Source: a virus. Taken from it: 30,552 nucleotides of DNA. Each line of letters starts with the position of its first letter. Positions within the stretch are counted from its first letter, which is position 1. Both the position numbers and the translations under genes were made by a program. The notes under the pieces are model-generated. The model saw only the letters and a list, made by a program, of their open reading frames with translations. It ran no database searches and was not told where the DNA came from. Below, one piece after another: positions 6,639 through 25,761 of this stretch. Where the stretch lies: the IMG/VR virus record IMGVR_UViG_3300010354_017497, positions 1 to 30,552 of that record. The stretch is one strand, 5' to 3'.

Positions 6639-7658
6639 ATGAACCTGATCCAATCTACTATTCTGACATCGTTACCAGCTGGCCGTAAAAAGACTCCGTC
6701 TGGTTGGTTGAGTTTTAATGCACCTTGTTGTGTGTACAATGGTGAATCACCGGATAAAAGAAAACGTGGAGGAGTAATGACATCTGCGGATGGTACCCTA
6801 AGTTATCACTGTTTCAATTGTGGTTACACAGCCAGTTATGTGATCGGAAGAAAACTGTCCACCAAGATGAAGACACTTATGGGATGGTTGGGCATTGCCG
6901 AGGACACCATTAAAAAATTAGCCATAGAGGCCATGCGTCATGAAGAAGCTGATATTAAGTATGAGAAGAAAAAATTTATAACTTTTCAAAAAAAATCTCT
7001 ACCTAAAAATTCTCACAAGTTAGAAATTTGGTTGGAAAAATATCTTGCACAGGATCTCACAACTGTACAGTACGAAAAAATAGATCAATTATTAAATTAT
7101 TTGAAGAAACGAGGCATAGAGCCCGATTGGTATGATTTTTATTATTCTCCAGATCAGACCGCTGATTTCCATCGCAGAGTGATCGTACCTTTCTATTGGC
7201 ATGGTGAAATAATCGGACATACTGGTAGATTGTTTGATACTGGAAACAAAGAAGTAAAATATTGGACAGAGACACAACCGGGATATGTGTTTAACATGGA
7301 CGCACAAGACTGGCAAAGAAAATTTGTATTGGTCATGGAAGGACCGTTTGATGCTATATCATTGAGCGGCGTTGCTATATTGGGTTCAGACATTAACGAC
7401 GTGCAAAGAGAACTGATACAAGGATTAAACAGGCAAATAATTGTGGTGCCGGACAGAGATCAAGCAGGTCAAAAACTTATAGAACAGGCCAAAGAATTTA
7501 GTTGGAGCGTGGCATTTCCCGAATGGCCTGATAGTGTCACCGACGTTGCTGATGCAGTATCTAAATATGGCAGATTGTTTACCCTACAATCAATATTAAA
7601 ATCTACAGAATCTTCGGCATTAAAAATAGATTTAAAGAGAAAGAAATATGGACAATAG
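6639..7658 (+). CDS. DNA primase (T4 gp61-like)
   Basis: A 339-residue primase that makes RNA primers for lagging-strand synthesis with the gp41 helicase. Domain order: N-terminal zinc-binding region with cysteines at 30/31 and HCFNCG at 57-62, then a TOPRIM catalytic core with EGPFDA (234-239) carrying the catalytic Glu and PDRDQAG (271-277) carrying the metal-binding aspartates. Length matches T4 gp61 (342 aa). An AAGG element precedes the ATG by a few bases. Its 3' end overlaps the radical SAM gene by 11 nt, so in this phage the primase is coupled to that gene rather than directly to gp41. Confidence 0.92.
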   Translation: MNLIQSTILTSLPAGRKKTPSGWLSFNAPCCVYNGESPDKRKRGGVMTSADGTLSYHCFNCGYTASYVIGRKLSTKMKTLMGWLGIAEDTIKKLAIEAMRHEEADIKYEKKKFITFQKKSLPKNSHKLEIWLEKYLAQDLTTVQYEKIDQLLNYLKKRGIEPDWYDFYYSPDQTADFHRRVIVPFYWHGEIIGHTGRLFDTGNKEVKYWTETQPGYVFNMDAQDWQRKFVLVMEGPFDAISLSGVAILGSDINDVQRELIQGLNRQIIVVPDRDQAGQKLIEQAKEFSWSVAFPEWPDSVTDVADAVSKYGRLFTLQSILKSTESSALKIDLKRKKYGQ

Positions 7659-8835
7659 AAACTATTATTGTTCAATGAAATTTAAATTCCTAAAGATAGA
7701 TTTAGGATCCAAAACAACTTATAATTGTCATGCCGCTGCTTCTCACCCAATTGATTTTGATTGGCTTAAAGAAAATCCGGGAAACCTTTTTAATACCAAA
7801 GTAAATGTGTTTGAACGAGAACAAATGTTAAGGAACGAGCGCAATGCCAGTTGTGAGCAGAACTGCTGGTCTGCAGAAGACAATGGTGCGCAAAGTCCAA
7901 GACTGTATCAGGGTGGGGTAGAAAAGACACATCAAGAAATTATTACTCAGCCAGAAACAATCGATCTAACTATAGGAGCGGATTGTAATCTAACCTGTTC
8001 ATACTGCTGCAAAGAATACAGCAATGCTTGGAGGAGAGATGTTATTAACAATGGCAATTACAATCTTACAGATTCACAAGATGATAGATATCAAGGCAAC
8101 ATCAAAGACAAAGCTCTGTTAAAAATTAGCCAACCAAGATTAAAAAACGCAGAACATTATCAAATTTTATTAAAAGAAATAGAACTGTCTGCAATAAAAT
8201 TAAAAAAATTAGTGATAACCGGAGGAGAACCATTGTTGGATAATGCTCTTATGGACGTTTTAGAACAATTAAATCTATCTTCTGCGACACAGATAGAGTT
8301 GTACACAGGATTAGGAGTCAGCAATTCTAGATTTTTGAATATGATCAAAAAATTAAAAAAGATAAAAAATCTTGTAGTAAAAGTCAGTTCAGAAAACATA
8401 GAACAATTGTTGGAGTTTAATAGATATGGAATTAAATGGACAGAATTTTCTGATAAGATCGACATATTAAAAAAAGAAGAGATTAATTTTGAATTCCATT
8501 CGACGTTGTCAAATCTCACAATATTTGGATTTAAAAAATTTTACGATCATTTTAGATCGCATAAAATAGTTGTGACGTTTGCTTATCAACCCAGGATGAT
8601 GAGTCCACACATTCTCGACAAAAGGAGCAAAGATTTGATTGAGCAGGATCTATTAACATTACCAAAAAGTTTTTATGAGCCCATATTAAAATCAATAAAA
8701 CAAGAGCCCAACGAGTTAGAAAAGAAAAATATTAAAGAATTCTTATATGAATTTACAAAAAGACGTAAGGATCTCAATTTAAAGGTATTTCCAAAAACAT
8801 TTTTAGAGTGGCTTCAAATAGAAAATGTGTTATAA
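7648..8835 (+). CDS. Radical SAM protein (twitch-type) inserted between primase and helicase
   Basis: A 395-residue radical SAM enzyme. The [4Fe-4S]-binding CxxxCxxC motif is at Cys113, Cys117 and Cys120, and the SAM-binding GGEP motif is at 192-195. An upstream C-E-Q-N-C pair (69-73) followed by E-x-x-G-x-x-S-x-R resembles the N-terminal module of phage twitch-domain radical SAM proteins. Substrate is unknown. The ATG lies inside the end of the primase gene, preceded by a purine-rich AAAGAGAAAGAA; an in-frame ATG at 7675 is a possible alternative. Its stop is 24 nt before the helicase ATG. It therefore sits inside the primosome operon, an unusual place for a cargo enzyme. Confidence 0.88.
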   Translation: MDNRNYYCSMKFKFLKIDLGSKTTYNCHAAASHPIDFDWLKENPGNLFNTKVNVFEREQMLRNERNASCEQNCWSAEDNGAQSPRLYQGGVEKTHQEIITQPETIDLTIGADCNLTCSYCCKEYSNAWRRDVINNGNYNLTDSQDDRYQGNIKDKALLKISQPRLKNAEHYQILLKEIELSAIKLKKLVITGGEPLLDNALMDVLEQLNLSSATQIELYTGLGVSNSRFLNMIKKLKKIKNLVVKVSSENIEQLLEFNRYGIKWTEFSDKIDILKKEEINFEFHSTLSNLTIFGFKKFYDHFRSHKIVVTFAYQPRMMSPHILDKRSKDLIEQDLLTLPKSFYEPILKSIKQEPNELEKKNIKEFLYEFTKRRKDLNLKVFPKTFLEWLQIENVL

Positions 8836-11987: not shown

Positions 11988-12188
11988 ATGGGCATACACT
12001 ACACATACAAGTCACAGAGTGGCGAGCGAAACCTGCGCAAACAGCAGAAACAGGAAGAGTTGCGTAGACGCAGCGACCAAAGAAAGCAATCGAAAGAACA
12101 GACAGAACCCACACCAGATGTTTACGTGGTGCCAGACAATGAAGTGGTAACACTGGATCATCTGACCAATCCGGATCTCAAGAAGTGA
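11988..12188 (+). CDS. Small highly charged hypothetical protein
   Basis: A 66-residue, very polar protein rich in Arg, Gln, Glu and Lys, probably partly coiled-coil or disordered (for example RNLRKQQKQEELRRRSDQR). An AGGAG Shine-Dalgarno lies about 9 nt upstream of the ATG. The stop overlaps the GTG start of the radical SAM gene (GTGA), indicating a two-gene operon. Function unknown; it could be a partner or adaptor for the radical SAM protein. Confidence 0.65.
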   Translation: MGIHYTYKSQSGERNLRKQQKQEELRRRSDQRKQSKEQTEPTPDVYVVPDNEVVTLDHLTNPDLKK

Positions 12189-13198
12189 TTAATTCTAGAT
12201 TATTTGATTGGTACGATATAGACATCAATAAAAATTTAAAAATAAAAAAACGTTGCTCACGACCGTTTGATACTGTTCTAATAGATAAACAGGGTTCTTG
12301 TTATCTCTGTGAATGCACATCTTGGTTGCCTCAGTCAGCTGGAAATTTACAAATAAAAACACTGGACGAAATTATAAACAGTGATGTTGCCAACGAACTT
12401 CAGCAAGCAATATTGGATAATTCGTATCGATATTGTAATAACCGTCACTGTGCTTATCTATTAGATTACAAAGGCACCGACACATGGAAACTTGTTGAAC
12501 CTGTTAGGCAAATTAAACATATTAGGTTGGCTATCGATGATAGTTGTAATCTCAGTTGTCCTAGTTGTAGAATTAAAAAAATTTTTTATAAAAGCGGAGG
12601 AGAATTTAATAAAAGAATAAAATTAATCGATAAGGTTTTGGATTTTTTAAAATCTCAGAAACACGAGATACAAGTACATATCGGATCTGACGGTGATCCT
12701 TTTGCCAGTCTTGTCTATAGATATTTCATGTTAAAAACCAAACACTTTGAAAATTTAAAATACAGTATGCAAACTAATGGACTGCTTATTAAAAAGAATT
12801 TTCATAAGTTTAAACACATTACCAATAATCTTTCGCAGATTGGTATTAGCATAGACGGTGCTACTAAACAAACATATGAAGAATTACGACAGGGGGGTGT
12901 TTGGGAAAAACTCTTAGAAAATCTAGAATTTTTAAAAACAATCAAAACATTTAAAATACATTTTCATTTCGTAGTGCAGCAAAAAAATTATCATGAGATT
13001 GAACCATTTATAGAACTTGGTGTAAAATATAATGCTGATAAAATATTTCTTAATAGAATTACTGATTGGAATACATTATCGAATTTTGACACTGTTGCCA
13101 TTGCAGATACAACACACCCCGAAAATAAAAAACTGCTCGAGATATTAGATAAAATTAAAGACAAAGAAGATTTTGTTGAATTTAGATCTTTATTTTAA
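12185..13198 (+). CDS. Radical SAM protein with N-terminal cysteine-rich (SPASM/twitch-like) module
   Basis: A 337-residue protein. Cys24, Cys39, Cys42, Cys44, Cys84 and Cys89 form an N-terminal auxiliary-cluster-like region, followed by the radical SAM CxxxCxxC at Cys121, Cys125 and Cys128. The usual GGEP is replaced by GSDGDPF (168-173 region). A barrel segment with S-I-D-G-A follows near residue 220, as in SPASM proteins. The auxiliary module precedes rather than follows the core. Start is GTG, overlapping the previous stop. The gene ends 9 nt inside the convergent SGNH-like gene. Substrate unknown; peptide or sugar modification is plausible for this family. Confidence 0.83.
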   Translation: MINSRLFDWYDIDINKNLKIKKRCSRPFDTVLIDKQGSCYLCECTSWLPQSAGNLQIKTLDEIINSDVANELQQAILDNSYRYCNNRHCAYLLDYKGTDTWKLVEPVRQIKHIRLAIDDSCNLSCPSCRIKKIFYKSGGEFNKRIKLIDKVLDFLKSQKHEIQVHIGSDGDPFASLVYRYFMLKTKHFENLKYSMQTNGLLIKKNFHKFKHITNNLSQIGISIDGATKQTYEELRQGGVWEKLLENLEFLKTIKTFKIHFHFVVQQKNYHEIEPFIELGVKYNADKIFLNRITDWNTLSNFDTVAIADTTHPENKKLLEILDKIKDKEDFVEFRSLF

Positions 13199-14130: not shown

Positions 14131-14206
14131 TGGTGGAGGCGATCAGGATCGAACTGACTACCTCTTGACTGCCAGCCAAGCGCTCTACCAAATGAGCTAC
14201 GCCCCC
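14131..14206 (-). tRNA. tRNA-Ala (anticodon GGC)
   Basis: A complete 76-nt cloverleaf with encoded CCA. Acceptor GGGGGCG/CGCCTCC contains the G3:U70 wobble pair that is the main alanine identity element. D arm GCTC/GAGC, anticodon stem CTTGG/TCAAG with loop CTGGCAG (anticodon GGC, reading GCC and GCU), and T arm GTCAG/CTGAT with canonical loop TTCGATC. It lies 10 nt downstream of tRNA-Thr on the same strand. Confidence 0.95.
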
Positions 14207-16441: not shown

Positions 16442-16873
16442 TTATGGTTTTAATAACCAGCCCTGTCCTGTAATTTTATGTTGCCATCTATAGAATGGCT
16501 CTGTTATTTCTAAACTCCATGTACCATTAAATCCTAAATAATTTGTAGGTGCTGTGACATTTGAATCATTAGAATAATTGGCCAATTGTGTCCACATAGG
16601 CACAATATTAAATTCGTCTATTTTAAGACTGTCGATAGACACTGCAGTATTGGAAGAAGATTTATAATTTTTATTTTTTAATTCTAAAGATATTTTAAAA
16701 ATATCCATTAACGGCTGTTGATGTTTGAATGATATGTTTTTTGTTAATATTCCTTCATATAATACAACTGTGTTAATTTTTAATATAATATCAGGAAAAT
16801 CTTTATCTTTTATTGGTGACAATGTCACGCCAATGCTTAAATTAATATCCTGCTGATCGTAAAAGTTTTTCAT
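16442..16873 (-). CDS. Hypothetical protein coupled to a radical SAM gene
   Basis: A 143-residue protein, starting MKNFYDQQDINL (an in-frame ATG 12 nt earlier, at 16885, is an alternative). It is mostly beta-strand-like, with a GTWSLEITEPFYRWQH stretch near the C-terminus, and has no catalytic motif I recognise. The start lies inside the 3' end of the radical SAM gene, so translation is coupled and a functional partnership (substrate, carrier or subunit) is a fair inference. Confidence 0.65.
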   Translation of the reverse strand: MKNFYDQQDINLSIGVTLSPIKDKDFPDIILKINTVVLYEGILTKNISFKHQQPLMDIFKISLELKNKNYKSSSNTAVSIDSLKIDEFNIVPMWTQLANYSNDSNVTAPTNYLGFNGTWSLEITEPFYRWQHKITGQGWLLKP

Positions 16874-18134
16874 ATTCTGGTGCATAATCTAAAATTGAAT
16901 TTTTTCTAGAACTCTCTAATTTTTTAAGATAAGATACTAGAGCTGGCCAGCTGCTAGATTCGTCTGGGCCATTCTGTAAATAGTCCACATAGCTCATTGC
17001 ATCTTGTAGAATATAATCTTTAACCTTGTTGGGGTCTCTGGTATTAATAATTCTTTCCTCAACAAATAATAATTTTTTACTATTGACCCACTGCTGTAGT
17101 TCTTTTGCGATATTCTGCCTAATATCTATTGGTAGTATTGTCATTCTCATAAAGTCTGGATTTTGTAAAAAATTGCAACTCTCTACCCCAACATCATAGG
17201 TATAAGCATAATCATAGATTGTTTTAATATGTGCTATACTGAAAATCGTAGGAGTGATTCTAAATTGTATCAGCCAATTTTGCTGTTTGCCTAATTGTAA
17301 CCATTTTTCTAATATTTCTTTTACCTTTTCAATCTTGCTAGGCCAACGTAGATAATTGTTGATTGGGTGTAGACATTCTATACTCATTCCTAAGTTGACT
17401 TCTTTATACTGTTTTAATAATTCAACTATTGATTCATCCCATGCTGTTAAATTGGTTGTGAATCCGATTGATATATTAGTATTCAATCCTTTTTCTATCA
17501 ATTTAACTAGAATTTTTTTAAATGCGGGAGTTATTAAAGTTTCTCCTCCTAAAAAATGTAGATAAGATAATTTTTTTGATTGTGACAATAATTCTACGAA
17601 TCTATCTACTGCTTCTTCGTTGTCGGTCCAATTTTTAGGAGGTAATTGGTCAATCAATCCTAATTTTTTAAATTCTGTTGCTAATTTAGAACTAGATGCC
17701 GGAACACAAAAAATACAACCACTGTTACAATAATTACCTAAATCGATTTGCCAATCCTGTGGCCATAAATCTGTATCTCCTTGTTGTTTGAAAGATTTTT
17801 CAAACTCATCATAAAAAGTACTAGATTTAAATGTTTTTTCAAAATTATCTAATTTAATTCCTACTTTTAATAATTGTTTTTCTCTGCCGCTGATCTTACC
17901 ATGCTCTTCCATTCTAGCACACTGATCACAGGAAGATATATGCTCTCCCTGCAACATCTTTAGACGCAGTGCCGACATCTCCTTTTGAAAGAATGTTAAA
18001 AAGTCTGTTTGATTTAAGTTGCTAACAATGGGATTTTTTTTATCTTCCATCCATCGGCAATATCTCAATTCGCCAGATGGTAACACTCTCATATGAAACC
18101 AAGGACTCGAGCAGAAGTTTTTCTTTAAAGACAT
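16842..18134 (-). CDS. Twitch-domain radical SAM protein
   Basis: A 430-residue radical SAM enzyme. The N-terminal auxiliary module is visible as FCSSPWFHMRV...YCRW (Cys8, Cys26) with a later CDQC pair (69-72), then the core CxxxCxxC at Cys136, Cys140 and Cys143, and a GGET SAM-binding motif at 196-199. This N-terminal C-S-S-P-W-x-H arrangement is the one I associate with phage twitch-domain radical SAM proteins. The substrate is unknown. An AATAAATA late box overlapping the clpP stop lies 32 nt upstream, so the gene may be transcribed late even though it follows clpP. Confidence 0.88.
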   Translation of the reverse strand: MSLKKNFCSSPWFHMRVLPSGELRYCRWMEDKKNPIVSNLNQTDFLTFFQKEMSALRLKMLQGEHISSCDQCARMEEHGKISGREKQLLKVGIKLDNFEKTFKSSTFYDEFEKSFKQQGDTDLWPQDWQIDLGNYCNSGCIFCVPASSSKLATEFKKLGLIDQLPPKNWTDNEEAVDRFVELLSQSKKLSYLHFLGGETLITPAFKKILVKLIEKGLNTNISIGFTTNLTAWDESIVELLKQYKEVNLGMSIECLHPINNYLRWPSKIEKVKEILEKWLQLGKQQNWLIQFRITPTIFSIAHIKTIYDYAYTYDVGVESCNFLQNPDFMRMTILPIDIRQNIAKELQQWVNSKKLLFVEERIINTRDPNKVKDYILQDAMSYVDYLQNGPDESSSWPALVSYLKKLESSRKNSILDYAPEYEKLLRSAGY

Positions 18135-18165: not shown

Positions 18166-18762
18166 CTATTTATTTTCCGCTTCTCTGGTGGTAACAACTT
18201 TGTCGGCTAGACCATATGCCACTGCTTGTTCAGCAGTCATGAAATTATCTCTCTCCATGTCGGCTTTTAGTTTTTCTAATGGCTGGCCTGTGTGTTTTTC
18301 GTAAACTCGAGTCAGCTCGTCTTTCCAACGTAATAGTTCGTTGGCTTGTATTTGCACGTCTGTTGCTTGTCCAGAAGCTCCGCCCAGTGGTTGATGTATC
18401 ATGTGTCGAGCATGTGGCAGTATCAATCTTTTTCCTTTGGTGCCTGCTGATGCTAACAGTGATCCCATCGAACATGCTTGTCCCATCACAATGGTCTGCA
18501 CATCACATTGTATATACTGCATGGTATCATAGATGGCCATGCCTGCTGTGACCAGTCCGCCTGGTGAATTGATATAGATTGTTATATCTCTGTCTGGTGC
18601 CTGTGATTCGCAAAATAATAATTGGGCACAAATGATTGATGCCGAGTGCTCTTCGATTGGGCCTTCTAACACAATAATTCTATCTTTCAGCAGTCGACTG
18701 AATATGTCGTAACTGCGCTCGCCTTTACTTGTTTGTTCTATTACTACCGGAATTAATGGCAT
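18166..18762 (-). CDS. clpP: ClpP protease subunit
   Basis: A 198-residue serine protease of the ClpP family with the complete catalytic triad: Ser98 in GQACSMGS, His123 in MIHQPLGG and Asp172 in ERDNF. Length and sequence are those of normal bacterial ClpP, without long propeptide. ClpP forms a tetradecameric chamber fed by ClpA/ClpX; no ATPase partner is in the window, so it would use host or distant phage partners. The ATG at 18762 is preferred to 18780, because the latter overlaps the -10 element. The promoter places transcription start within a couple of bases of the ATG. Confidence 0.92.
18167..18174 (-). promoter_or_regulatory. Late promoter AATAAATA inside the clpP 3' end
   Basis: Minus-strand NATAAATA-type box across the clpP stop codon, 32 nt before the radical SAM ATG at 18134. 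Confidence 0.5.
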
Positions 18763-18770
18763 ATGATAGT

Positions 18771-18799
18771 ATTGTAACATGTGTTGAAACGCATGTCAA
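18771..18799 (-). promoter_or_regulatory. Strong host-type promoter for clpP
   Basis: Minus strand: -35 TTGACA (18794-18799), 17-bp spacer, extended -10 TGTTACAAT (-10 at 18771-18776). Only 8 nt separate the -10 from the ATG at 18762, implying a leaderless or near-leaderless message. The -35 overlaps a perfect palindrome. Confidence 0.7.
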
Positions 18800-18886: not shown

Positions 18887-19384
18887 TTATGCCTTTTTGA
18901 TTTTATCAATTAATCCCGGCGTGAATGTGTCTTTAAATTCTTGATATACTACTTTGGTTTTTTCTATAAACTCTGCTTTTTCTTCTGGTGTTAATAGATG
19001 TACTTCGATTCCCTCTGCTTTCAATTTTTCCTTGGCTTCTTCTCCATCCTGTATGGTGGTTTCTCTTTCTTTTCTTCCTGCTTTGATAGCAGCTTCTTTT
19101 AATACCGCTTTGACTTCAGGTGATAACTTTTCGTAAAAATCATTTCTCATGATCATGCTTGTGAGGAATAGACTGTGCTGTGTATCTAATACTGATTGAA
19201 GTACCTGATTTTGCTCTAGTGGATATATTCTTGAATATATGCCTTCTCCTGCCTGTACTTCGTTTTTTTCTATTTTTTCTTTAAGATCTTCAATTTCGAT
19301 AACTTGTGAATTTATATCGGCTCCTAGTGCTTTGAATGTTGCCTTGGCAACTGGATTTTTATTGGTGCGGATTTTCATATACAC
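18887..19384 (-). CDS. TRAP solute-binding protein C-terminal lobe, copy 2
   Basis: A 165-residue protein corresponding to the second half of a DctP-family TRAP solute-binding protein. It begins in the strand bearing the family's invariant carboxylate-binding Arg (K-I-R-T near residue 5) and the N-P-V-A-x-A-T-F-K-A-L-G-A helix, and ends with the usual E-L/L-T-P-E-E-K and Y-x-E-F helices. No signal peptide, no N-lobe. It is nearly identical to copy 1 from residue 58 on, but differs in the segment around 24-55. The ATG context overlaps the stop of copy 1, so both are co-translated. A partner N-lobe is encoded at 19952-20428. Confidence 0.82.
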   Translation of the reverse strand: MYMKIRTNKNPVAKATFKALGADINSQVIEIEDLKEKIEKNEVQAGEGIYSRIYPLEQNQVLQSVLDTQHSLFLTSMIMRNDFYEKLSPEVKAVLKEAAIKAGRKERETTIQDGEEAKEKLKAEGIEVHLLTPEEKAEFIEKTKVVYQEFKDTFTPGLIDKIKKA

Positions 19385-19868
19385 TAGGCCTTTTTGATTT
19401 TATCAATTAATCCCGGTGTGAATGTGTCTTTAAATTCTTGATATACTACTTTGGTTTTTTCTATAAACTCTGCTTTTTCTTCTGGGGTTAGTTCGTGTAT
19501 AGTTACACCCTCTGCTTTCAATTTTTCCTTGGCTTCTTCTCCATCCTGTATGGTGGTTTCTCTTTCTTTTCTTCCTGCTTTTAACGCTGCATTTTTTAGT
19601 ACCGCTTTGACTTCAGGTGATAACTTTTCGTAAAAATCATTTCTCATGATCATGCTTGTGAGGAATAGACTGTGCTGTGTATCTAATACTGATTCTGTGA
19701 CTTGATTTTGTTCTAATGGATATATTCTTGAATACACGGTCTCGCCGCCTTCTATTGTTCCGTTTTCCATTAACCCTTTAACTTCTTCAATTTCAGAAAC
19801 GTGTCCTTCGGCGCCTAGTGCTTTGAAAGTTGCTTTGGCAACTGGATTTCTATTTGTTCGGACTTTCA
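18892..19868 (-). repeat. Tandem duplication of the DctP C-lobe gene
   Basis: Two direct copies of about 485-490 bp. The 3' parts are almost identical at the DNA level (for instance the ~95 bases from 18892 and from 19387 differ at only one or two positions), while the part encoding residues ~20-55 has diverged strongly and differs in length. Confidence 0.85.
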
Positions 19869-19869
19869 T
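19384..19869 (-). CDS. TRAP solute-binding protein C-terminal lobe, copy 1
   Basis: A 161-residue DctP C-lobe starting MKVRTNRNPVAKATFKALG, i.e. exactly at the hinge where domain II of a TRAP binding protein begins; Arg4 is the expected carboxylate-coordinating Arg. It is preceded by its own late-like GCTAAATA box 6 nt before the ATG and by a rho-independent terminator that isolates it from the N-lobe gene. N-lobe (158 aa) plus this C-lobe equals one mature DctP in length. No signal peptide, so the product should stay cytoplasmic or go into the virion. Function unknown. Confidence 0.83.
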   Translation of the reverse strand: MKVRTNRNPVAKATFKALGAEGHVSEIEEVKGLMENGTIEGGETVYSRIYPLEQNQVTESVLDTQHSLFLTSMIMRNDFYEKLSPEVKAVLKNAALKAGRKERETTIQDGEEAKEKLKAEGVTIHELTPEEKAEFIEKTKVVYQEFKDTFTPGLIDKIKKA

Positions 19870-19875
19870 TAAAAA

Positions 19876-19883
19876 TATTTAGC
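19876..19883 (-). promoter_or_regulatory. Late-like box GCTAAATA, 6 nt before ATG
   Basis: Minus-strand GCTAAATA between the terminator and the C-lobe copy 1 ATG (19869). Confidence 0.4.
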
Positions 19884-19901
19884 TTGTTTATAGGATTGAA
19901 T

Positions 19902-19931
19902 AAAAAAAGGCGACATTGCTGCCGCCTTTTT
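19902..19931 (-). terminator. Rho-independent terminator after the DctP N-lobe gene
   Basis: Minus strand AAAAAGGCG, 10-nt loop, CGCCTTTTTTT: a GGCG/CGCC stem extended by A-T pairs and followed by a T-run. It ends the N-lobe transcript just before the C-lobe genes. Confidence 0.85.
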
Positions 19932-19951
19932 AATTTTTGGTAAGATAGTAA

Positions 19952-20428
19952 TTAGTGTTTAGTAGTTAAGTCTGATAATTTATCAATCTTTTTACTAGAA
20001 ATTACGTTTCTAAATCCACCCGAATAAGTGAACGCCATGCCTCTTACATTAGATTTCTCGGTGATTTTGTTTAATAAAAACTCTCCCACTTCGCCTTCTA
20101 ATACTCTAGTTGCATGATCATGATCCGTGAATATGAAAGGCATATCTAATGCTAACATATCTTGATCGATCTTTTCAGCTAACCAGGTTGTGTACATTTG
20201 CGACATTTCGATCTTTCCTTGCTCCATGAGGTCAAGTAAATCGTGTTTAGTTACAACAACACCGTTGTTGTATCTTTCGCTGTACTCACTTAGAGTCATA
20301 ACTTCAACTTCTATTTTTTCTGCAGTCTGAGCTTGGTTCACGAAGTCTTGGAAATCTTTAGCCGCTCTTACGAATAAAGATAAAGGCTCGTGTGCAATAA
20401 CCCATCTAATTTTAGTTGTTTTAGTCAT
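19952..20428 (-). CDS. TRAP solute-binding protein N-terminal lobe (split DctP)
   Basis: A 158-residue protein equal to domain I of a DctP-type TRAP binding protein: IRWVIAHEP strand, L-F-V-R-A-A-K-D-F helix, a MTLSEYSERYNNG loop, I-E-M-S-Q-M core, LDMPFIFTDHDHA (the family's D-x-P-F-L-F motif) and G-G-F-R-N-V-I near 137, ending at K-L-S-D-L just where the hinge would lead to domain II. There is no signal peptide, unlike genuine periplasmic DctP. AAGGAA precedes the ATG and a CATAAATA late box lies 55 nt upstream. It is closely related to the N half of the full-length protein at 24674-25723. Confidence 0.83.
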   Translation of the reverse strand: MTKTTKIRWVIAHEPLSLFVRAAKDFQDFVNQAQTAEKIEVEVMTLSEYSERYNNGVVVTKHDLLDLMEQGKIEMSQMYTTWLAEKIDQDMLALDMPFIFTDHDHATRVLEGEVGEFLLNKITEKSNVRGMAFTYSGGFRNVISSKKIDKLSDLTTKH

Positions 20429-20522: not shown

Positions 20523-21302
20523 TTAATTTTTGAGTGTAATACCTAAAATTTTACATAATTCGTCGAGTGCATTATGGGGATATTGATACGATCTTTTAAA
20601 ACGCTCAAGCTCAAATTTAGGCATTTGCACATATTCTTTAAGTGCATTTAAAATGCTTTCTATTGAATTATTGCGAAAATTAACATTATAAAAAAATAGA
20701 AGTATTCTGTTCCAATATGTGTCTAATTCTAAAGATTTTGTTTGCGATTGTTTGCTTTCTTCATTTATAAAATTAACTATATTTTTATCATTTGGGCAAA
20801 TTATTTCAAGATATTTTTTTAATTGATTGTATCCGTTACGCACAGGGTTCTTTATATCTATTTCGTGCTCTCGTATCTTTTTAAAAAGATTATCTAATTT
20901 TGTTAAGATATTCATTATAAAAAACATTTTTTCTTGTAACTCTAAATCAGTATTGGTGGGCAAGATTGATTCTGTTTTTATTAAACTTGCTTCATACAAT
21001 GAGGTGTTTGCTTCCAACTCTAAACTATTGGTTAACTCGGCTGTACCTCCCCAGGTTATACAATCGCGATTATCGATGTTTTTGTTTATGCTAAAATTAA
21101 AATATTTAAAACTAACAATAGAAAATGTGTAAAAATTTTTCAACAATATAAGTTGTAAAAACTTTAACAAAGCATGGTTTCTATGTAAAATATAAAATCG
21201 GTTTTGTTTTATATTTAAAAGTCCAAGAAAATTATATGTTTCATCATTTAACACACCATCATATATTGAAAAATAATAAGGCGATTCTGTAATTTTTATC
21301 AT
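20523..21302 (-). CDS. Unknown protein A2, paralogue of A1
   Basis: A 259-residue protein I do not recognise. It shares with A1 (23742-24632) the N-terminal pattern Y-Y-x...Y-x-x-L-G-L/L-E-x...FYI-(6-8 residues)-L-L-K-x-x-Q-L-I followed by an aromatic strand, and a helical second half with a C-P-N/E-D segment. There is no membrane segment, signal peptide or catalytic motif. It is very AT-rich. The ATG is 3 nt after the stop of PP-loop protein B2, so it is the last gene of the A1-B1-B2-A2 operon. A substrate-presenting or carrier partner for the PP-loop enzyme is the natural guess, from position only. Confidence 0.7.
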   Translation of the reverse strand: MIKITESPYYFSIYDGVLNDETYNFLGLLNIKQNRFYILHRNHALLKFLQLILLKNFYTFSIVSFKYFNFSINKNIDNRDCITWGGTAELTNSLELEANTSLYEASLIKTESILPTNTDLELQEKMFFIMNILTKLDNLFKKIREHEIDIKNPVRNGYNQLKKYLEIICPNDKNIVNFINEESKQSQTKSLELDTYWNRILLFFYNVNFRNNSIESILNALKEYVQMPKFELERFKRSYQYPHNALDELCKILGITLKN

Positions 21303-21305
21303 ATT

Positions 21306-22484
21306 CTATCCTTGATATCTTTCTAATAATACTTTCAATGTTTGTATGGAAAGAGAGTCGTCTAGCACGCCTTGCCAATTTTTTGTATAATAAATTGGTT
21401 GGAACGGTTCTGAAACAATTAAATCAAAGTTTGCGGGCCTAGCTGGCAGTTTAGATTTGTATTCTAAATAATTTAAATCTTTTGTAAATTCATAAATGTA
21501 CATCTTAACTTCTTTTTTATGCAGAGAAAAATTTTTAGTTATATTTTTTTTAATGTTTGAATAACCCCATTGTTGAAATTTTTCAGTATTAAAAAAAGTG
21601 TTTTGAGCAAATTCTTTTATAGCCGTATCACTAAATGTAGTTGTAAAATCCCTACGTAAATATGCAAAGGGACGCTGACAACTAAATTCCCATTTAAAAT
21701 TATAATATGTCCAGAACCACCAATCTGCAATTGATGTAAGGTAGTCTGCTTGTCCTGTTTCTTCTAAATTATTTGTAATTTTTTCAACATACCATTCTCC
21801 AAACCCTGGCTCATACGACATGGGATCAACGTGAGATATTTCCAATAATTCTTTCATTTTATCTAAATGATTTTTCCATGGTTCTAGATGTTGTTCTCGA
21901 TCTATAAAATATTGATATTTAGAAACACTAGGACCAAATAGACAATCCCCAGGATCTCCGTGTAATAAAATATAATTTTGTAAAAACTCTTCGGTTATGT
22001 TAAGTGTTCTATAATGAATGCACTCTAAATTATTTGAAATAAATTTTTTATAAAATTCTATATTTTCTAAAATAGAATTAGTATCACATACTACTGTAAT
22101 AATATTTTTGTCAGCAGTTGGTATATTTTTTAAAAGTGCTGTTAAAACCACTGTACTATCAATACCGCCACTCCACATCACTGCAATTTTTTTATTAGTA
22201 TTTTTAGCTTCGTAATATATTTCTAATGCTCTTGCATCTAAAAGATCTTTTAGAGTGTCTTTGATAATTTTAAATTCTGGAATTTTATATAAAGGATTGC
22301 TTGGAATATTCCACGGTGTTGTAAATGTTCCTAAGCGAGCACGCAAATCTAATATGCCTATTAATAAGTGTTGTGTTCTTATCCAAAACTTAGCATATGG
22401 TTTTTTGTTAGAAGGATTTAATATAGATAAACGATTACAAGGAATGCAGGGAGAATCTTGTAAATTAATTAGATGCTGATTCAT
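21306..22484 (-). CDS. Asparagine-synthetase-type PP-loop ATPase B2
   Basis: A 392-residue protein with the PP-loop SGGIDST at 105-111 (preceded by I-A-V-M-W) that adenylates carboxylates in AsnB-type enzymes, and HGDPGDCLFGPS from His175, equivalent to the AsnB G-x-G-x-D-E-L-F-G-G loop. The N-terminal glutaminase (Ntn) domain of asparagine synthetase is absent: ~100 unrelated residues with C-x-x-C at 13-16 replace it. It should therefore use ammonia or another amine, or a partner, to form an amide or similar bond. Its paralogue B1 lies 17 nt upstream. Substrate unknown. Confidence 0.78.
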   Translation of the reverse strand: MNQHLINLQDSPCIPCNRLSILNPSNKKPYAKFWIRTQHLLIGILDLRARLGTFTTPWNIPSNPLYKIPEFKIIKDTLKDLLDARALEIYYEAKNTNKKIAVMWSGGIDSTVVLTALLKNIPTADKNIITVVCDTNSILENIEFYKKFISNNLECIHYRTLNITEEFLQNYILLHGDPGDCLFGPSVSKYQYFIDREQHLEPWKNHLDKMKELLEISHVDPMSYEPGFGEWYVEKITNNLEETGQADYLTSIADWWFWTYYNFKWEFSCQRPFAYLRRDFTTTFSDTAIKEFAQNTFFNTEKFQQWGYSNIKKNITKNFSLHKKEVKMYIYEFTKDLNYLEYKSKLPARPANFDLIVSEPFQPIYYTKNWQGVLDDSLSIQTLKVLLERYQG

Positions 22485-22501: not shown

Positions 22502-23749
22502 TTAATTTTTTCGCAAAATATTCATGACTACTTGTTGTTCTACAGAATCAAGATACATTGGTTTCCAGTTTTCGTCGTGCCCTATTAGTCTTGATTTAGA
22601 TAATTTTAAGTTTGGGGGAGGAGTTGATGTTTTTCTTTTTCTAGAAAAATATTGAAAATTTTTATCAAACTCGTAGATATATTCTCTTGCTTTTAGTTTA
22701 TGAGTTTTAAAAACATCCAATCCAATTAATTCTTTCAAATTTGAATAAGACCATTGCTGGAATTTGGGAGTAGCTAAAAAAATATTATCAGCATAAAATT
22801 TATGATTTTCTTTTGTAATTCCTTGGTGTTGTTGTCCCAAAATACTATTATGCAAAGGGTATGTACATATTCCTTGCCATTTAAAATTAAAATATGTCCA
22901 CCATATCCAATCAGTAACCGAACTCACGTGATCTGCATGTCCGCTTTCTTCTAATGTTTGACAAATAATATTACAAAACCATTCTCCTATGCCTGGTTGA
23001 GCAAACATGTCTTTTTCAAATGTGGGTTCAAAAACTTGTACCAGCGTTTTAAGATGCTTCTTCCATGGTTCTAAATGTATTTGATTATCTGAAAAAATTT
23101 TATACATACTCCCAGACGGGCCAAATATGCCATCGCCTGGGTCTCCGTGCAATATAAGAGTTTTGTCTAGGAAACTATTGTCAATACGTAAACTTGATGC
23201 ATCTTTAATAGAAATTTTTTTATTTGACGATAAAAATTTAAAATAAAAATCTTGATTATCAGATATGCTATGCATTGTTAGGTAAACTATGAGTAGTTCT
23301 TGATCTGCTTCACTGATATTTTTTAAAAGTGCTGTTAAAACTGTTGTGCTATCAATTCCGCCACTCCACATCACTGCAATCTTTCTGCCGGTATTTTTAG
23401 CGTTATTAATTAATTCTATTGCTCTTTTATCCAACAAATCTGCTAACGAATCGTTTATAAATTTTAAAGGTGGCGAGGCATACAGTGGAGAAGTTTTACA
23501 ACCAAATAAGTTGGTGAAAGTGCCTGTGCGTGCTCTAAAATCTCGAGTGCCGATTAAAATTCTGGGTAGATATAGGTAATTCTGTGAATATTTTGTAAAA
23601 GATTTTATTGTCATTAACAGGTGATCGCACAGCTGATTTAGATACAAGCATTGATTATTTTTTAATGAAAGTAAATATTTTGGTATGTTAAATTTATGCT
23701 TTTCAGCGATATCTCGACATAAAGTTATTATTTCTAAATTATTACTCAT
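22502..23749 (-). CDS. Asparagine-synthetase-type PP-loop ATPase B1
   Basis: A 415-residue paralogue of B2. SGGIDST is at 129-135 and HGDPGDGIFGPSG starts at His201. The shared regions also include L-I-G-x-x-D-x-R-A-R-x-G-T-F-T before the PP-loop, Q-Q-W-S/G-Y-S-N and Y-I-Y-E-F in the C-terminal half. No Ntn glutaminase domain. DNA around the PP-loop is highly similar in the two genes, whereas the N-termini diverge. The ATG overlaps the stop of A1 by 8 nt, indicating translational coupling and probably a paired A1-B1 function. Confidence 0.78.
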   Translation of the reverse strand: MSNNLEIITLCRDIAEKHKFNIPKYLLSLKNNQCLYLNQLCDHLLMTIKSFTKYSQNYLYLPRILIGTRDFRARTGTFTNLFGCKTSPLYASPPLKFINDSLADLLDKRAIELINNAKNTGRKIAVMWSGGIDSTTVLTALLKNISEADQELLIVYLTMHSISDNQDFYFKFLSSNKKISIKDASSLRIDNSFLDKTLILHGDPGDGIFGPSGSMYKIFSDNQIHLEPWKKHLKTLVQVFEPTFEKDMFAQPGIGEWFCNIICQTLEESGHADHVSSVTDWIWWTYFNFKWQGICTYPLHNSILGQQHQGITKENHKFYADNIFLATPKFQQWSYSNLKELIGLDVFKTHKLKAREYIYEFDKNFQYFSRKRKTSTPPPNLKLSKSRLIGHDENWKPMYLDSVEQQVVMNILRKN

Positions 23750-24632
23750 AATATTTTAATAGTTTTTTTAATTCGTCTTTTATTATTTGTCTAATTTTAT
23801 CAATATCATATGTCCTTTGAAATAGTGGATAGTTTTTTTCTGCTTCTGTAATGCATCCTTCTTCCAATATTTTGGAAGAATATTCTTCAAGTATTTCTTT
23901 GATCGATTGAGAAAAATTTATTTCATTCAGGCGTTTATATAGTGTATTATGTAACTGTTGAATAGATCTAACTCTTATTTGTTCGTTATCTTTTTGTTCT
24001 TCTACTATTCTTGAAATAATTGTATCTTCTGGATGACATATATTCATGTGTTTTTTATACTCATCAAACCCAAAATCACAGATTTTTTCTTGTAACGTAA
24101 CAAACTCTAATACATATTCAAAAACACCTTTTAAAATATATAATAACCGACGAATTAAAAATAGTTTTTCTTGTAATTCATTATTAAAAGATTTACTTTT
24201 TGTTTCGTGTTTTATTATATTATCGAGTAAACGATAATGATTTACGTCCATTGAGATGCCTCTTACGGTATGCTCTGTCATTCCAAAAAGAAAACAATTA
24301 TCATTATTAAAATTTTTTTGAATATTGTTTATTCTTTCCCCAATGTTCAAATAAACAGACGCCTTTCCTACATGACCGGCGTGTGCTTGGGTCATACTTT
24401 TGATTTGATATTTTTCTACAGTTTTTTTTGTTTTGTCTAAGAAGGTAAAATAATGATCAATGTTTACGAAATATAAAAATTCGTATTTTAAAGCAATCAG
24501 TTGAACTTTTTTTAATAACTCCGGGTCGCTGTCTATGATGTAGAAACTGTTGCTTCTTTGCTCCAGCAGTCCGTACCTTTCATAAGAAGGATCATGCTGA
24601 CAATGGTAATATAAAGGATGTTGTGTATTCAT
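23742..24632 (-). CDS. Unknown protein A1, paralogue of A2
   Basis: A 296-residue protein without recognised domain. The ATG at 24632 is preferred over a GTG two codons earlier because a late-like GTTAAATA box ends 8 nt before it. The N-terminal ~80 residues match A2 in pattern; the rest is helical and charged. It overlaps B1 by 8 nt. The start codon lies at the foot of a perfect 12-bp hairpin, which could gate translation. As with A2, a role as substrate or partner of the PP-loop enzyme is inferred from coupling only. Confidence 0.7.
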   Translation of the reverse strand: MNTQHPLYYHCQHDPSYERYGLLEQRSNSFYIIDSDPELLKKVQLIALKYEFLYFVNIDHYFTFLDKTKKTVEKYQIKSMTQAHAGHVGKASVYLNIGERINNIQKNFNNDNCFLFGMTEHTVRGISMDVNHYRLLDNIIKHETKSKSFNNELQEKLFLIRRLLYILKGVFEYVLEFVTLQEKICDFGFDEYKKHMNICHPEDTIISRIVEEQKDNEQIRVRSIQQLHNTLYKRLNEINFSQSIKEILEEYSSKILEEGCITEAEKNYPLFQRTYDIDKIRQIIKDELKKLLKYYE

Positions 24633-24660
24633 AGACACGGTATTTAACTACCGTGTCTAT
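24631..24660 (-). promoter_or_regulatory. Perfect 12-bp hairpin covering the A1 start and late-like box
   Basis: ATAGACACGGTA, 6-nt loop, TACCGTGTCTAT. On the minus strand the 3' arm ends within the A1 ATG (24630-24632), and GTTAAATA (24641-24648) spans the loop. It also sits right after the DctP stop, so it may act as terminator, translational gate or operator; there is no T-run. Confidence 0.5.
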
Positions 24661-24673
24661 GTGTATGATTTTT

Positions 24674-25723
24674 TTATGATCTTGCTGCTAGATGAACAAC
24701 TTTTTCATCGATGCCTGCAGATCTTAAGTAAGATGCTTGGTAACATTTTTCAGCTGCTTTTCTAAGTTCGGCAGTTTCTTCATCAGAAATAGAATTAATA
24801 ACTAATCCTTTTTCTTTTGCAGTTGCTTCAATCTTAGCTGCGTCTTCTAATGACCAAATTCTTTCTTGTCTAGAAGTTTCTAAACCAGCTTGAACAAATA
24901 ATTCTTTTTCTGTTGCTGATAAAGAATCCCAAAACGTTTTACCGCAAAGTATTGTTGTCATGAACATACTGTGGTTTGTTTTTAAAACATACTTGCCAGT
25001 GAATCTGATTAAAGTAGTTTCAATTGCACCACCATTAACGTTCATGTCTTGAACATCTCTATCTGTTGCAGTGTAAGTTGTAAGCGTTTTGTCCGCTCCA
25101 GCTACTTTGAACATATATCCAGATGTCATTGTTGTGGTAATAAAGTTTGGTTGATTTTTTAAATCTTCTAAAGATTTAATATCTTTGGTTGCACCAATCA
25201 CTCTGTATCCACCTGAGTAGGTATAGCAAAGTGGTTTGATTCCTGTCTTATCGTGGACCTTGCGAGATATAATTTTTCCCACAGCGCCTTCCACTGTTCT
25301 GGTAACATGGTCGTGGTCTTTGAATAAGAAAGGCATGTCTAACACAGAGATAGTTCTATCTAAGTGAGAACCAACTATGTTGACCTGTGCTTGTGACATG
25401 TGTACTCTTCCATCGTTTAAAATTTCGAATACTTTTGCCCATTTAGCTTTTCTATATTTAAAGTTTGAATCTCGAGATTCAACTGATTCATTGTCGTTTT
25501 CTAGACCTTTAAGTACCGGTGATCTGTCTTTTAAAACTTCTTTTTCTTCAGCTGAGAACATGTCAGGATTTTTTACTAACAGTTCATCCACAGAAGTGTA
25601 AAGTTCTAATTCAAATTTTCCAGGTAACTTTGCGTCTAGTTTTTGCTCAAAACAACGTGCCGCTCTAATGAATAGATCTTGCGGTTCGTGTGTAATAAGC
25701 CATCTTATTTTTTGTTTTGACAT
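24674..25723 (-). CDS. Full-length signal-less TRAP (DctP-type) solute-binding protein
   Basis: A 349-residue DctP-family protein. Domain I: IRWLITHEP, L-F-I-R-A-A-R-C-F, an insertion near 40-85, LDMPFLFKDHDH and Y-S-G-G-Y-R. Domain II: M-F-K-V-A-G-A, a long W-D-S-L-S-A-T-E-K-E-L-F helix and C-terminal helices. The start at MSKQKIRW is supported by AGGAG 6-7 nt upstream; five extra residues are possible from an earlier ATG (25738). There is no signal peptide or lipobox. The invariant domain-II Arg of TRAP binding proteins (K-x-R) seems to be replaced (N-F-I-T-T-T), although it is kept in the split copies. No TRAP membrane subunits are present. Confidence 0.82.
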   Translation of the reverse strand: MSKQKIRWLITHEPQDLFIRAARCFEQKLDAKLPGKFELELYTSVDELLVKNPDMFSAEEKEVLKDRSPVLKGLENDNESVESRDSNFKYRKAKWAKVFEILNDGRVHMSQAQVNIVGSHLDRTISVLDMPFLFKDHDHVTRTVEGAVGKIISRKVHDKTGIKPLCYTYSGGYRVIGATKDIKSLEDLKNQPNFITTTMTSGYMFKVAGADKTLTTYTATDRDVQDMNVNGGAIETTLIRFTGKYVLKTNHSMFMTTILCGKTFWDSLSATEKELFVQAGLETSRQERIWSLEDAAKIEATAKEKGLVINSISDEETAELRKAAEKCYQASYLRSAGIDEKVVHLAARS

Positions 25724-25761
25724 AAAGTCTCCTATCATAGGGTTTTTTGTATATACAAGAG

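Follow-up and report, generated by a model that had tools for sequence, protein, structure and literature searches.

Solute-binding proteins are, in their textbook form, exported molecules made of a single chain. The nearest described kind to the proteins considered here are the DctP-type receptors of TRAP transporters (PF03480), represented by IseP (8t9t/8te9), SiaP (7a5q), PA0884 (9ht3) and the structures 4p47 and 4xfe. In IseP, domain I comprises residues 1–153 and 243–281 and domain II residues 154–242 and 282–336, with the acid group of the ligand held by Arg156 and Arg177 (PMC11668362); in SiaP the triad that supports closure consists of E186, H209 and R127 (PMC11550005). Genes of the transport type are known from phages as auxiliary uptake genes, with PstS in T4-like cyanophages (reviewed in PMC6359870) and tctA on a SUP05 phage contig (PMC4164917) as examples, which are likewise phage-borne and are not described as split. 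Two BFVD entries from an uncultured Caudovirales phage, A0A6J7WI33 (159 aa) and A0A6J7WKL0 (162 aa), both carry the name ‘TRAP transporter solute receptor DctP/TeaA’; they are 90% and 75% identical to the model described below and correspond, by length and identity, to an N part and a C part, yet they are listed as separate receptors and the entry names do not call them halves of one fold. The PHROG family phrog_31178 (336 positions, no assigned function) matches, in corresponding halves, the four DctP-like proteins of the DNA described next, but unlike the split genes its profile is that of a single-chain protein. A survey limited to the open-access literature found no account of a split or phage-borne TRAP receptor, which is weak evidence of novelty.

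The window, by which we mean the whole 30,552-nucleotide stretch of viral DNA analysed (positions 1 to 30,552 of IMG/VR virus record IMGVR_UViG_3300010354_017497), contains T4-type replication genes and four DctP-like genes, all on the minus strand. Three of these form the locus of interest: an N-part gene (19952–20428, 158 aa), which matches positions 9–134 of the 286-position PF03480 profile (E 1.3e-16, 61 bits), a C-part gene, C1 (19384–19869, 161 aa), which matches positions 138–284 (E 1.9e-29, 103 bits), and a second C-part gene, C2 (18887–19378, 163 aa), which matches positions 137–284 (E 1.9e-24, 87 bits), the start of C2 being taken as the ATG at 19378 where the list of open reading frames begins it at a GTG at 19384. 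All three exceed the curated cut-off of 23.4 bits and the N and C matches are complementary halves of the profile, so that a split DctP gene with a duplicated C part, the central claim of a preliminary description of this DNA, is borne out in its genes, order, strand and duplication. The fourth gene (24674–25738, 354 aa; PF03480 E 3.8e-27) encodes a full-length single-chain paralogue that has neither a signal peptide nor the second ligand arginine. The same fragment of 30 kb also codes for a ClpP-type protease (E 6e-81) and, in three genes, for radical-SAM proteins, these four genes lying at 7648–8835, 12185–13198, 16842–18134 and 18166–18780, and it has a tRNA gene at 14134–14206 on the minus strand (60 bits) that was the only match above threshold in an Rfam scan of the window.

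The fold was modelled on a close relative, L055, whose N and C parts (88% and 75% identical to those of the window) were tethered as a single N-GG-C chain with the TAA codons read as glycine, and not on the two chains of the window itself. AlphaFold2, supplied with 35 aligned sequences, returned a model of this tethered chain with a pLDDT of 95.3 and a pTM of 0.91. Foldseek and VIA-align matched it to TRAP receptors over its whole length (E 4.7e-26), the superposition on 9ht3 giving Z 34.7 and 2.5 Å over 300 residues, and from this model we are confident that the joined N and C parts would adopt the two-domain TRAP receptor fold. In this and in their ligand residues the phage proteins resemble the DctP-type receptors, with a full-length fold at Z 32–35, twin ligand arginines and the glutamate and histidine of the closure network. 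They differ in being encoded by two genes, in the duplication of the C part, in lacking a signal peptide and in the failure to find a TRAP permease with them. The window protein is thus a member of the DctP fold which, as the receptor of a TRAP transporter, departs from the type in its chain number, its missing signal peptide and its lack of a phage-encoded permease.

Alignment to the solved TRAP receptors places the cut. The domain I/II border of IseP at 153/154 corresponds to N 137/138, so the N part does not end at the hinge, as had been proposed, but runs some 21 residues beyond it: it holds most of domain I, the first ~21 residues of domain II and the first conserved ligand arginine, Arg140 (IseP Arg156, SiaP R127). 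C1 contributes the remainder of domain II, the second piece of domain I, the hinge helix and the second conserved ligand arginine, Arg4, which corresponds to IseP Arg177 and SiaP R147 in an ungapped alignment of C1 with IseP. The expectation that the C part would begin exactly at domain II with the ligand arginine kept therefore holds for the arginine and not for the boundary, and the one ligand arginine foreseen has become two, one in each gene. Glu43 of C1 aligns with IseP Gly216 (SiaP E186) and His66 with IseP His239 (SiaP H209), and Arg140, Arg4, Glu43 and His66 are invariant among the aligned split members. Because the cut lies ~20 residues inside domain II and between the twin arginines, each lobe and the pocket need both chains. 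The terms ‘N-lobe’ and ‘C-lobe’ used for the products in the preliminary description do not fit the IseP domain map, by which each lobe is built from both chains, and two independent lobes are ruled out by the same map, since C also holds the second piece of domain I. This dependence of each lobe on both chains argues for an obligate heterodimer, and N and C very probably form the binding pocket together.

The junction between the two genes has been arranged in several ways. In the window N and C1 are not joined by in-frame read-through and are separated by an intrinsic terminator (19904–19931, minus strand) with a 12-bp stem followed by a U-run, a stability of –16.5 kcal/mol (z –4.9) that was equalled by none of 200 shuffled sequences, and which is retained with an altered stem sequence in L001/L013 and in L015. 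It is followed by a TAAATA element resembling the T4 late promoter (19876–19881, minus strand), with 6 nt between it and the C1 ATG, a spacing that is exactly the same in the window, L013 and L015; transcription starting at this element would leave the C1 mRNA nearly leaderless. The same late-type motif also precedes N. A terminator with a late-like promoter between the halves, as first described, is a feature of the window's own subclade only, whereas in most relatives the genes overlap or abut. Five junction types occur among the split contigs: terminator plus TAAATA with a gap of 81–82 nt, an in-frame TAATAA between the halves immediately followed by ATG (TAATAA-ATG, in one subclade), a 4-nt ATGA overlap, an overlap of 17–20 nt and a gap of 18–19 nt. 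The N-to-C gap thus ranges from –20 to +82 nt across the phages, and no common recoding signal explains the junctions because C is read, with respect to N, in frame 0, +1 or +2 depending on the phage. The earlier view that this is not a simple frameshift is upheld, the relative frames being inconsistent between phages and C having its own start codon.

A search of a phage GenBank collection gave no match for C1 and one weak match for N, and relatives were for this reason collected from IMG/VR viral contigs. Scans of these yielded 46 distinct loci, of which 26, including the window, carry N and C as separate genes and 20 carry one fused open reading frame; the 26 split contigs include near-identical contigs from different samples. 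N is 75–97% identical in eight relatives, and N and C are adjacent in every complete split locus. The same split had been suggested as something to seek in other phage genomes, and it is there. The possibility raised alongside it, that relatives might carry an intact fused gene and the split be an artefact of assembly, is correct as to the fused gene only: 26 contigs with five kinds of junction rule out an artefact, and the split behaves as an inherited derived state. In a tree of N and C together, with full-length paralogues as outgroup, all split rows fall into a single group (support 89/97), which sits within the fused rows. This makes a single fission likely from the sequences, if not proven, because a quick tree of C alone leaves one fused group among the split rows and does not resolve the split clade. 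Both parts are under purifying selection, with a median pairwise dN/dS of 0.088 for N and 0.076 for C, against 0.073 for the fused genes. Gp23, the T4 major capsid protein, was found in nine contigs, none shorter than 148 kb and the longest 357 kb, which identifies at least these nine as T4-like phages; the split occurs in a set of phages that are aquatic and T4-like, with several giants among them. On the downstream side of the DctP-like gene, large phage contigs show matches to RF04321 (permuted tmRNA) and many tRNA genes (L040:10388–10684, L047:14467–14672, L072:15248–15629 and L076:9417–9707).

The two C parts of the window are tandem copies with 82% identity, and in the 3′ two thirds of the genes the DNA reaches 100% identity over stretches, with identical runs of up to 95 nt. 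Alignment columns 21–40 form an exception, with a protein identity of only 33%, and the L013 orthologues have this divergent block in common with the window (94% from C1 to C1, 90% from C2 to C2). The pattern looks like gene conversion outside one block that has been kept different, the sign of conversion being the long identity of C1 and C2 DNA although the L013 orthologues are more diverged. The block holds a ligand-contact position, and the divergence reaches to the position of IseP Asn217, which is threonine in C1 and glycine in C2. Two C copies are present in three lineages (window/L013, L028 and L023), and the same contrast is seen in each. Three cases do no more than suggest a difference in ligand preference between C1 and C2, and the alternative heterodimers of one N with either C that had been envisaged appear plausible, the two copies being nearly identical except in this block.

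No signal peptide or hydrophobic N-terminal stretch was found in any split, fused or full-length member, which extends to the other members what had been noticed in the window. The DctP-like members begin at the mature first strand, and full-length paralogues elsewhere in the split phages likewise lack a hydrophobic N-terminus. Adjacent Bug/TctC receptors, by contrast, retain classical signal peptides and serve as an internal control, and the proposal of a non-exported, two-part binding protein gains support from this difference. The DctM permease (PF06808) was found in none of 21 phage contigs, several of which are fragments, and in seven of 14 control genomes; of the membrane subunits the search covered DctM. 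The split receptor may use a permease of the host.

A gene linked to the locus encodes a PP-loop ATP pyrophosphatase-like protein. The window has two of these on the minus strand, at 22502–23749 (family profile E 4e-60, with an SGGxDS motif) and at 21306–22484 (E 6e-65, with a weak match to argininosuccinate synthase); such a gene, adjoining receptor-type genes, is present in all 21 phage contigs, and in 39 of the 46 loci the DctP-like gene is close by; two contigs have PP-loop genes with no DctP match. Sequence matches at the family level are weak and below cut-off, the SGGxDS motif is near-invariant in the family alignment, and one member, as modelled, resembles asparagine and β-lactam synthetases at Z 10–11 over ~290 residues with an rmsd of 5–6 Å. 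The asparagine/β-lactam synthetase family consists of enzymes that activate a carboxylate. The neighbourhood has further members. The PP-loop pair is flanked by two related genes of unassigned family (20523–21302 and 23742–24638), whose products are 26% identical over ~147 aa, the former with no Pfam match and the latter with a weak match to HisKA_2. In 13–14 phage loci the region upstream of the DctP-like gene contains genes of the AhpC-type peroxiredoxin and AhpD/CMD types (for example L029:4240–4779 and L051:4750–5262), and another PP-loop protein is encoded at L043:5302–6486.

In most relatives, split and fused alike, the DctP-like gene is preceded by a structured leader of ~75–90 nt, which is absent from the window and its AT-rich sister contigs. 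Examples among 29 distinct leaders are L047:7387–7471 (plus strand), L029:7432–7506 and L081:5418–5499. Seventeen pairs in three helices were paired in 95% of cells, compared with at most 52% in slid controls, and 15 pairs show changes on both sides; the latter are the stronger evidence because the structure was hand-drawn on the same sequences, which somewhat favours the paired fraction. A TAAATA motif stands 4–12 nt ahead of all 29 distinct leaders, mostly at 6 nt, against a background of 1% of 30-mers. Rfam holds no family for the leader, and two leaders scanned alone up to E 5 gave no credible match. Twenty large contigs contained one copy in 16 cases, two in two and none in two, and an exact-pattern scan retrieved 48 viral contigs, the gene after the leader being DctP-like in 22 and Bug/TctC in 11, with ABC-type receptors, TctA, TauD-type oxygenases and others among the rest. 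One such leader precedes a TctA-family tripartite tricarboxylate permease gene on a viral contig (L095:575–1885, plus strand, E 7e-39). Among ~85,000 cellular genomes there was a single match; it lies in a metagenome-assembled genome, on a contig of 3 kb that also has a fused DctP gene of this family. The conserved, covarying leader is a candidate for an undescribed cis-regulatory RNA.

Taking these observations together, we give somewhat better than even chances to a fission-derived cytoplasmic DctP heterodimer with a composite acid site, acting likely as a ligand carrier or buffer for the PP-loop enzyme. Its ancestor would have been a phage DctP-type protein already devoid of a signal peptide, whose gene was split, most probably once, into two polypeptides that would co-fold as one Venus-flytrap heterodimer. 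The N chain would supply Arg140 to the composite site and the C chain Arg4 together with Glu43 and His66 of the closure network; the heterodimer would remain in the cytoplasm of the infected cell and bind a small organic acid, a carboxylate or a sulfonate. The carrier role is proposed because the PP-loop gene is linked, by a link that is genetic only, and its product resembles in its model the carboxylate-activating synthetases, so that the ligand would most likely be carried or buffered for this enzyme. Where C is duplicated, as in the window, a single N chain could have two C partners that differ in the ligand they prefer. In the window's subclade N and C1 are separate transcription units and an equal supply of the two chains is therefore not obvious.

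Late-type promoter motifs are no less suited to a structural than to a metabolic role, and they are compatible with a receptor carried in the virion: a heterodimer made late, packaged or displayed, and ejected or docked on the TRAP membrane subunits of the host, or sensing a ligand. This we consider rather unlikely. The TAAATA motifs before N, C1 and, in relatives, the leader speak for it, as do the missing signal peptide and phage permease, but the neighbours (PP-loop, Bug receptor, AhpC/AhpD, ClpP, radical SAM) are metabolic or processing genes and not structural ones, and in other contigs genes for signal-peptide receptors and for TctA stand behind the same leader and promoter. Were the halves instead recruited to different tasks, no longer forming one binding protein, the separate transcription in the window's subclade and the duplication of C without N would be readily understood; such a division of labour is unlikely, however, given that each lobe needs both chains, that the twin arginines and the glutamate and histidine are invariant across the two, and that no complete locus has N and C apart. 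Marginally less likely again is a ligand sponge, in which the dimer would tie up a metabolite or a signal molecule of the host, as anti-defence sponges of phages do. A binding fold that is cytoplasmic and non-enzymatic and keeps its acid-binding site intact would suit this, and a duplicated C could widen the range, but late-type promoters speak against an early counter-defence role, PADLOC gave no match in the neighbourhood and no sponge is known to have the TRAP fold.

An ordinary auxiliary uptake receptor, reaching the periplasm by an unrecognised route and feeding a TRAP transporter of the host, would accord with a fold and site that are those of transport proteins and with the exported Bug receptors and TctA among the genes linked in relatives. 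It is nevertheless quite improbable, since no split, fused or full-length member has a Sec-type N-terminus, while the Bug receptors of the same phages do, and no phage DctM was found. Hardly credible at all is that the two reading frames yield one chain through frameshift or read-through, or that they are what is left of a gene in decay. The in-frame TAATAA of one subclade is what would be expected of it, but recoding was rejected on the inconsistent frames of C, together with the range of gaps and the start codon of its own that C possesses, and decay was rejected on a dN/dS of ~0.08 and on the many contigs, 26 in all, that come from different samples.

A more far-reaching version of the cytoplasmic heterodimer, which we put forward tentatively and regard as improbable at present, is a two-chain Venus-flytrap receptor with a constant N chain and an exchangeable C chain, serving as a cytoplasmic sensor or carrier of two specificities; in relatives the leader, which seems to be confined to phages, would control the same cassette and may sense a related ligand. 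The linked leader suggests that phages have a circuit controlling uptake-type genes that Rfam does not list. If the reading favoured here is true, a conserved and selected split with a shared pocket would constitute a natural experiment in protein fission, and the split phage protein would be a new kind of non-secreted receptor.
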